From NCBI RefSeq assembly GCF_008014645.1, contig NZ_VOWY01000001.1:1-64000 (forward strand): a DNA stretch of 64,000 nt. The letters run 5' to 3'. The stretch comes from Collinsella sp. BA40 (lineage in GTDB: Bacteria; Actinomycetota; Coriobacteriia; Coriobacteriales; Coriobacteriaceae). Shown here piece by piece: positions 8,303 to 43,730 of this stretch (its first letter is position 1; each line of letters begins with the position of its first letter). The translations under genes and the position numbers were made by a program. The notes under the pieces were generated by a model that saw nothing but the letters and a program-made list of their open reading frames with translations, searched no databases and was not told where the DNA came from.

Positions 8303-8341
8303 CGCGAAAAAAGAAAGGACCCGAGCATGTGCCCGGGTCCT
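8303..8341 (-). terminator. minus-strand terminator of a structured RNA
   Basis: Read on the minus strand, AGGACCCG (8341-8334) pairs with CGGGTCCT (8323-8316) and is followed by TTCTTTTTTC. The T tract shows the transcript comes from higher coordinates, where there is no ordinary gene before 8850. Confidence 0.75.
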
Positions 8342-8640
8342 AGAGTCGCTTCGTTTGCGCTGCGCGTCCGCTGTGCGAGGAAGGGGATACACACGGTGAC
8401 GCTTCATGCAGCCGTAGAAACGAACGGTCCAGCCTATGCCCTTACATGAGGCCGCTGGAAAGATCGGTGGAGTCGAGGAGGCCAGTTCTCTGTGTCGGGG
8501 GGAAGGAGAAATGGTTCGCACGTCGGGATAGCCGTACTTGGGAAGTACGAGCTGCGTCTTTGGGAGAATGCATGCGTCGACCTCCTCGTCCGTCCACCTG
8601 TACCATACGCACCGCAGTCGCTGCTCTGGCGATGCGCTGT
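8316..8640 (-). ncRNA. candidate structured non-coding RNA
   Basis: The minus strand carries a promoter-like TTTAAA (8672-8667), 16 bases, GATAAT (8650-8645), then about 300 nt ending in the terminator at 8316-8341. Inside are several exact stems: GGTGGA (8598-8593) with TCCACC (8471-8466), CGAGGAGG (8588-8581) with CCTCCTCG (8481-8474), and an apical CGTACTT-CCC-AAGTACG hairpin (8549-8533). A further GU-containing stem pairs GCGCATC with GGTGCGT near 8608-8636. A 43-codon minus ORF (8573-8442) begins after the GAGGAGG, so a leader peptide or small protein whose ribosome site is buried in the stem is an alternative. I do not see the conserved cores of tmRNA, RNase P RNA or SRP RNA. The Collinsella-1 RNA motif is a known class to compare with. 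Confidence 0.55.
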
Positions 8641-8644
8641 ACCT

Positions 8645-8672
8645 ATTATCACCGCTCCTTCGCGTTTTTAAA
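8645..8672 (-). promoter_or_regulatory. promoter of the structured RNA
   Basis: Minus strand: TTTAAA (-35 like), 16-base spacer, GATAAT (-10 like). The next 180 bases towards 8850 are AT-rich and hold nothing else that I can assign. Confidence 0.4.
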
Positions 8673-8849
8673 GCTTAATTCTCACTTACACGTTATGGCA
8701 CATTGTGTAAAAGTGCAGGTAGATAAAGAAAAAGTGACTATAACCTACCGCTTAACCCTGAATAAAATACCGTCTACCGTGGTGCTCTCGTGGTGAAATG
8801 GTCGATGAAACGTGGAGAAGGTGCCTTGTTATCCGTTGATAGTGCGCAT

Positions 8850-13312: not shown

Positions 13313-13606
13313 TTAGACGAACGCGGCGTAGGGTCGATAGGGCCACTGCTCCGAAGGGCTCGGAGACGCCATGGCGTCGGACCCGGGCTTTTGCGACGCG
13401 CGTTTGAACGCTTCGTAGGCGTTCTTGAGGTTGGCGCGCGTGGCGCCGGCGTCGCTTTTTGCCAAGGTGATGCGGGCGGGGGCGTGCTTGACCGCACGCG
13501 CCGGCGCGATCGCGGCGGGGGCGGCGAGGGCGGTGAGTTCGTTGGCATGATGCGCGGAGGAGAAGGGCGTACGGCCCGGCTTCTTCTCGTGCGTGGTGCG
13601 GCGCAT
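13313..13606 (-). CDS. hypothetical small basic protein
   Basis: 97 residues, Ala-rich and basic, with no signal peptide or membrane helix and no recognised family. GGAG lies 8 bases before the ATG (13618-13615 on the minus strand), which supports translation, and the gene ends facing a shared terminator. A short helical segment, ATRANLKNAYEAFKRASQK, is the only structured-looking part. Confidence 0.45.
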   Translation of the reverse strand: MRRTTHEKKPGRTPFSSAHHANELTALAAPAAIAPARAVKHAPARITLAKSDAGATRANLKNAYEAFKRASQKPGSDAMASPSPSEQWPYRPYAAFV

Positions 13607-43213: not shown

Positions 43214-43730
43214 GCCATGCCCGTGCGCATGCGAGGGGCTCGGTGGTCGTTTGCGTGGCTCGCGGGCAATGCCGGCCGCCGTTTCCTCGTGCGCGGCAGT
43301 TGGTTGAAGCGCATGCTTTAGCCTGCGGAAATGCGGTGCATGCCTATGGCATCTCCGCGATCTCCTGCTATAATGCCCCTCGTTCCTTCCAGGCTGTGGT
43401 TGCGGCGGGGCCTTCGGCGCTCCTCCTAGTCCATGACAGACGCGGTCAAAGGGATCCACGTAAGCCGCGGCGTGCGCGCCAAGGCGATCATGGCGCGTCC
43501 TAGAAGTAAGACGTACCGTCCGGTCTATTCTTTCGAGGCAATAGGTGCCTCACGGGCGAGCGGGTTAGTCGTGATGCCGTTGCGGCGGCTGAGCAAACGC
43601 CCCGGTGCGCAAGTGTGGGGTCAAATACCAGGTCAGCTGGGGGAACAGTGGCGACGCTCGCCGGCCGTGCGGCCCGTAGGCGTCGTCTTTCATAACAAGA
43701 CGCGCTTGCCGAATGCGGGGGGATTTGGGA
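43214..43730. other. 516-base region with promoter and long leader of the solute-binding gene
   Basis: No gene is supported. A TATAAT at 43369 with ATGGCA 17 bases upstream implies a transcript with a leader of about 350 nt before 43731. GCGCGCC-11-GGCGCGT (about 43475-43499) and GAGGCA-5-TGCCTC (near 43536-43553) are stems in it. It does not show the conserved boxes of lysine, T-box or cobalamin elements that I know. Confidence 0.4.
43346..43374 (+). promoter_or_regulatory. promoter of the solute-binding protein gene
   Basis: ATGGCA (43346-43351), 17 bases, TATAAT (43369-43374). Confidence 0.55.

Follow-up and report, generated by a model that had tools for sequence, protein, structure and literature searches.

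A candidate self-locking small-protein mRNA of the Coriobacteriaceae whose coding sequence is predicted to pair with its own Shine-Dalgarno sequence

In the rpoH and gnd mRNAs of Escherichia coli, a segment of the coding region pairs with the translation start region and represses initiation. A small gene on the minus strand of a 64,000-nucleotide stretch of the Collinsella sp. BA40 genome (contig NZ_VOWY01000001.1, positions 1 to 64,000; the whole stretch is hereafter called the window) resembles these mRNAs in that an internal coding segment, lying tens to hundreds of nucleotides downstream, is predicted to pair with the ribosome-binding region. However, the genes are unrelated, the stem described here is kept by compensation across a whole bacterial family and is accompanied by an invariant C-rich hairpin, and, unlike the temperature-responsive rpoH structure, it remains unmelted in silico. 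The locus also resembles the C-rich-loop RNAs (RNAIII/hld, LhrC, RsaE and FsrA, and the dual-function VcdRP) in combining a small-protein ORF, a UCCC-type loop that is predicted to be exposed and could bind SD sequences, and a promoter and terminator of its own; UCCC loops that block Shine-Dalgarno (SD) sequences have precedent among small RNAs (PMC4132741). It differs from these RNAs in that its C-rich loop is part of the coding sequence, in that it belongs to the phylum Actinomycetota, and in that a crude loop-complement search brought up no targets. The Downstream-peptide RNA of cyanobacteria (RF01704) has a similar layout of conserved RNA structure with a conserved short ORF in a small independent transcript (PMC2864571), but its motif is confined to the 5′UTR, whereas the present element reaches about codon 36 and has no Rfam match. 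The Collinsella-1 RNA (RF01700), which is likewise a candidate RNA of gut Actinobacteria and the namesake of the genus, does not match the element at gathering or permissive thresholds.

More broadly, no Rfam family was found in the region at the gathering score, and permissive searching (E up to 5) returned chance-level matches only. The Collinsella-1 and 6S models were both included and neither matches, and the initial annotation, which had been made from the sequence without database searches and had recognised no tmRNA, RNase P or SRP core, is upheld on this point by the covariance models. Elsewhere in the window, the raiA structured RNA (RF03072) lies at 43384-43645 on the plus strand (148.9 bits; gathering score 101.3). 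A literature search returned no description of the element, and no such dual-function RNA is reported for the Coriobacteriaceae in the literature covered. Two features of ORF-embedded SD-sequestering mRNAs are found here: a coding segment is complementary to the SD and predicted to be paired with it (58 of 58 relatives' sequences), and this pairing is maintained by compensatory changes among 59 distinct copies. The locus represents a new RNA and small-protein family, akin to ORF-embedded SD-sequestering mRNAs and to dual-function RNAs.

All parts of the element lie on the minus strand of the window, and its fold is dominated by two long-range helices. P1 joins GGUGGA (8593-8598) to UCCACC (8466-8471), with both arms supported by the fold, the arm-swap test described below and RNAalifold, and the 5′ arm also by pair counts. 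P2 joins CGAGGAGGUC (8579-8588), which holds the SD sequence GGAGG (8585-8581), to the anti-SD arm GGCCUCCUCG (8474-8483), which supplies the codons G-L-L and the first base of D. In full, P2 pairs 8588-8579 with 8483-8474, and the stem of 8581-8588 with 8474-8481 called by the initial annotation sits inside it; the other long-range stem and the hairpin claimed at that stage are likewise found on this strand where they had been placed. Upstream, the 5′UTR hairpin P0 (8607-8637; fold and arm-swap test) carries the loop AGCAGCGA, which reads AGCAGCA or AGCAGCG elsewhere in the family. Two hairpins fall within the ORF, namely the lineage-variable P4 (GUACUU-CCC-AAGUAC, 8533-8549; fold and arm-swap test) and P5 (8486-8510), which has a UUCUC/GAGAA stem and a C-rich loop and is delimited by invariance, arm-swap and unpaired probability. 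Within P5, and mostly in its loop, the sequence UCCUUCCCCCC (8507-8497) is identical in all 59 copies. The 348-nt transcript folds at -131.2 kcal/mol, compared with -114.1 +/- 5.2 kcal/mol in dinucleotide shuffles (z -3.29, 0/100), and the 146-nt core gives z -2.34, all folds being equilibrium predictions for naked RNA. The RNA structure at the locus is real, its conservation and the both-side changes described below placing it beyond chance, and the RNA element comprises the 5′UTR and about the first 36 codons.

The ORF in the window, MHSPKDAARTSQVRLSRRANHFSFPPTQRTGLLDSTDLSSGLM (8442-8573), has 43 codons followed by TAA and is a truncated homologue of a family protein of 62-94 amino acids. 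In nearly all relatives, the ORF behind GAGGAGG runs for 62-94 codons, the SD stands 4-10 nt from the start codon, and indels within the ORF are codon-scale. The protein follows the pattern MHSS..AA....FSFPPTQR.GLL.S.T, then a variable-length linker, and then RSxDQxxNLxxSxxxLLDAL. In this C-terminal block the residues are kept and the codons are free (Leu, for example, is written by six codons with an entropy of 2.1 bits; pS 0.68, pN 0.38), and because conserved residues are here encoded by varying codons, the product is taken to be a real protein. Judged by these substitution patterns, the C-terminal helix of the relatives' protein is under protein-level selection. AlphaFold predicts only that helix (residues 45-74), with the remainder at low confidence, and searches of Pfam, NCBIfam, PHROGs and PDB with the encoded protein gave insignificant best matches. 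The window's frame ends at codon 44 (TAA), so that the C-terminal helix is gone while the promoter, RNA fold and N-terminus are kept. Past the TAA, the protein-profile match continues to 8400, in agreement with the alignment to the closest relative, and marks a degenerate in-frame remnant of the lost helix at 8400-8441 (GHRLDRSFLRLHEASP, compared with NQRVNLERSFHNLLDALSISP in relatives); in that closest relative, C. tanakaei YIT 12063, the protein is complete at 63 aa. By homology, the 43-codon ORF is thus the true N-terminus of the family protein, cut short. The earlier statement that the region holds no standard gene does not survive this comparison, and the proposed structured RNA unit with its own promoter and terminator is retained as to structure and signals, but it is not primarily non-coding: in relatives it forms the 5′ portion of a conserved gene for a small protein.

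Two further observations concern the protein. In copy L020 (G002:C22:102533-102654), the invariant run of six Cs is five Cs long, the ORF is frameshifted and the fold persists; the missing C is either a sequencing error or a real polymorphism. Several relatives carry, at a distance of 5-9 kb from the element, a second small gene whose product has the C-terminal motif as well (RSxDQRxNLxxSYxxFLxA). It is found at 13313-13606 on the minus strand of the window, where its ORF ends in ...ATRANLKNAYEAFKRASQKPGSDAMASPSPSEQWPYRPYAAFV, at about 3700-3950 in L055 and at 4625-4714 in L070, and it has no Pfam or NCBIfam match above cut-off.

Searched as DNA, the core of the element (8466-8598, minus strand) matches 23 of 24 same-genus genomes and nothing in 15 other genera. 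A protein profile finds the small gene in 60 of the 67 family genomes and in five of six genera, a covariance model of the RNA core recovers again exactly 60 of 67, and neither model has a match in any other genus sampled from the class; therefore, RNA and protein travel together. The element is present as one copy per genome in Collinsella, Enorma and relatives, from which the 59 distinct copies were collected for comparison. Element and protein are both absent from three of 45 same-genus genomes (G012, G046 and G050) and from all four genomes of the sister genus g20 (G159, G214, G242 and G274). All genomes lacking the element are at least 94% complete, and these absences are apparent gene losses. 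A plasmid collection yielded one match, NZ_OY725717.1 (L168), a 900-kb Collinsella aerofaciens replicon named 'plasmid 6'; its genes look ordinary chromosomal, and it may therefore be a mislabelled chromosome fragment. The search of viral contigs gave a single weak match of 14 residues.

Comparison among relatives carries the case for conservation, SD pairing and compensatory evolution, as it does for the coding nature of the ORF. RNAalifold recovered P1 and P2 from the sequence alignment with changes on both sides, 98% of P1/P2 cells are paired, and both-side changes occupy 17 cells, compared with 4.9 after shuffling (0/500), while slid controls gave no more than 2. When the changes were mapped on a tree from which the helix columns of that alignment had been withheld, three pairs showed about 11 inferred compensatory branch events across the 59 distinct copies; one P1 pair, which exchanges U-A, C-G and U-G, shows about five. 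The initial annotation had held that a lack of compensatory changes in homologous loci would speak against the candidate, and these counts show the opposite. Paired arms in different copies include CAAGGAGG with CTCCTTG, CGGGGAGG with CCTCCCCG and CAGGGAGG with CCTCCCTTG, and several such changes exchange Leu for Pro in the protein. A Leu-to-Pro change in the GLL motif matches an A-to-G change in the SD in four genomes, and copy L107 has the Leu/Pro swap without a matching SD change. Two P2 pairs also depart on one side only; on the minus strand these departures run from G-C to G-U or from C-G to U-G, which fits that strand being the RNA. In the arm-swap test, the pairing strength of each species' own arms was set against that of arms from other species, giving z -8 for P1 and P2 together, -5 for P1 alone, -12 for P0, -4.4 for P5 and -4.3 to -4.5 for the P4 region. 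A candidate helix around the start codon, P3, gained no support in this test and was rejected. An underpowered blind, phylogeny-aware scan of all column pairs against a tree-based null found no pair with E < 1, and the covariation claim therefore rests on the targeted arm-swap and pair-count tests. By these tests, compensatory changes have preserved the main stem, and some of them replace an amino acid of the protein.

The imprint of the RNA on the reading frame is visible in codon usage. Within the RNA element pS is 0.25, compared with 0.68 in the C-terminal domain, and Arg is always AGA in the former and CGN in the C-terminal block. The anti-SD arm GGCCTCCTCG codes for Gly-Leu-Leu and takes in one base of the codon that follows, and TCCTTCCCCCC is invariant across copies, with Ser, Phe and Pro written as TCC TTC CCC in 100%. 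The interior of the element is variable except for P5, where eleven loop and stem nucleotides are identical in the 59 copies, synonymous sites included, and where the UUCCCCCC loop has a mean predicted unpaired probability of 0.88 in relatives' copies. This invariant C-rich sequence exceeds the needs of a simple SD lock and thus hints at an extra function.

The promoter-like pair of the initial annotation, TTTAAA-16-GATAAT at 8645-8672, is present and is the sole one in 701 bases (0.4 expected by shuffling), but only its downstream half recurs in relatives. Alignment of the family's upstream regions reveals no conserved consensus -35; the -10 hexamer (GATAAT at 8645-8650; CATAAT, GATAAT or AATAAT in the family) is instead preceded by box-type elements. 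The putative activator box GTAAGTGAGAATTAAG (8674-8689; family consensus GTAAG-N5-CTTAAG) starts 38-39 or 48-49 nt upstream of the -10, two spacings about one helical turn apart, and an ACCTGC box (8715-8720), kept in many relatives, lies about 65-70 nt upstream of the -10. Because the conserved elements are the -10 and the GTAAG-N5-CTTAAG box rather than a -35, we infer that the promoter is probably activator-dependent, with transcription probably starting at about 8638-8640. A strict box-plus-ATAATG pattern is present in four of nine genomes tested, at the small-protein gene each time, and the regulon search across the nine found no other gene that carries it. At the other end, the U-tailed terminator that had been called is indeed present (8306-8341; stem 8341-8316 plus a T tract), and 31 of 56 copies have a strong hairpin with a T tract no more than 260 nt past the ORF. 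Immediately before the terminator, AGCGACTC (8343-8350) is common to about 18 relatives in the family form RGCGACTC. The same RGCGACTC precedes the terminator beside the paralogue with the C-terminal motif in L070 (4810), and it is possibly a 3′UTR element shared by the element copies and the paralogue. The genes flanking the element differ between relatives, and the element therefore stands outside any fixed operon. At the matching place in the one annotated Collinsella aerofaciens record examined no feature is listed, in a PLSDB gene table that is incomplete.

Our preferred explanation, to which as a whole we assign a probability of about 0.7, is that the locus encodes a small-protein mRNA that carries its own translational lock, and that the gene is restricted to the Coriobacteriaceae and forms a transcription unit by itself between an activator-type promoter and an intrinsic terminator. 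The predicted unpaired probability of the SD is at most 0.009 in all 58 relatives' sequences, in line with the original suggestion that GAGGAGG is sequestered in the main stem. Among in silico transcripts, SD accessibility averages 0.17 in those that end before the C-loop and 0.10 in those that end just before the anti-SD arm, so that the SD is more accessible there but not fully free in either. Codons 31-34 would fold back over more than 100 nt onto the SD as P2, lengthened by P1, and the P0 hairpin and P5, with its exposed invariant C-rich sequence, would complete the fold. As codons 31-34 are predicted to pair with the SD, we propose that translation of the finished mRNA is repressed. Ribosomes would load only before the anti-SD arm is transcribed and folded, or after P2 is opened by a trans factor, which may be an RNA or a protein and would most likely act at P5 or P0; ribosomes passing codons 31-34 would then keep the SD open. 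Restricted loading of this kind would cap the amount of protein made from each transcript and make it conditional. The SD is predicted closed in the full RNA and more accessible in shorter transcripts, and we therefore favour a lock that is released during transcription or by a factor acting in trans. That factor may have its site at the invariant loop, or the loop may target other mRNAs, as UCCC small RNAs do. Alternatively, the pairing of the SD over a long range may serve passively to lower expression, without acting as a switch.

Among the rival explanations, a dual-function RNA is a possible but less likely reading: the transcript would encode the protein and also, like RNAIII, RsaE, SprD, FsrA and LhrC, act in trans by way of the exposed UCCUUCCCCCC, a complement of SD-like GGGGGGAAGGA; when translation ends, the SD lock would convert the mRNA into a stable regulator. 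The eleven P5 nucleotides unchanged even at synonymous sites, the open loop on a hairpin stem maintained by exchange, the described SD-blocking UCCC loops (PMC4132741) and a window fold that outlives the loss of the protein's C-terminus all point this way. However, in crude tests neither the complementary 10-mers GGGGAAGGAG (eight genomes) nor a 13-mer with one mismatch (seven genomes) were commoner than controls, which were reversed sequences for the 10-mers, and no conserved target gene stood out. An extended version, in which the mRNA throughout the family yields a small regulatory protein only in a brief co-transcriptional interval and then becomes a self-locked, SD-targeting regulator via its C-rich loop, with the RNA half alone surviving in some species, such as that of the window, that have largely lost the protein, seems to us unlikely. 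The opposite extreme, a plain non-coding structured RNA with an accidental ORF, would agree with the fold being kept where the ORF is truncated, as in the window genome, or frameshifted, as in L020, but it is very improbable, since almost all relatives keep the ORF at full length, its indels are codon-scale, the SD lies 4-10 nt from the start, and C-terminal residues are conserved through free synonymous codons.

The remaining readings concern how access to the SD might be set. A sensing leader, either a riboswitch or an autoregulatory structure, would bind a metabolite or the encoded protein in the domain enclosed by P1 and P2; a long-range stem closing a junction, invariant loop nucleotides and a short ORF recall the layout of Downstream-peptide RNAs (PMC2864571), but the element lies mostly inside the ORF, its interior is variable except for P5, and it controls one gene only, so that we regard this reading as quite unlikely. 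Sequestration of the SD in a stem would also suit an RNA thermometer, which we consider hardly credible: simulated heating to as much as 65 C leaves the GC-rich 10-bp P2 with P1 closed (SD unpaired probability 0.001 in the window copy), and the SD exposure on moderate warming that a thermometer entails does not occur in these predictions. Just as implausible is a type I toxin mRNA with a sequestered SD, for which the short ORF and long-range SD pairing would speak; the polar protein, predicted to have a single C-terminal helix and an N-terminus of low confidence, does not resemble a membrane toxin, the gene is single-copy and vertically conserved, and no antisense RNA was noticed.

The locus adds to the biology of a major gut lineage a conserved RNA and protein family that is absent from Rfam, Pfam, NCBIfam and PHROGs. 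In this family, the RNA pairing clearly dictates codons and even amino acids, as Leu/Pro exchanges track SD changes. The element offers a testable model for the control of translation by an anti-SD within the coding sequence, and the truncated copy in the window would provide a natural separation of its RNA and protein functions.
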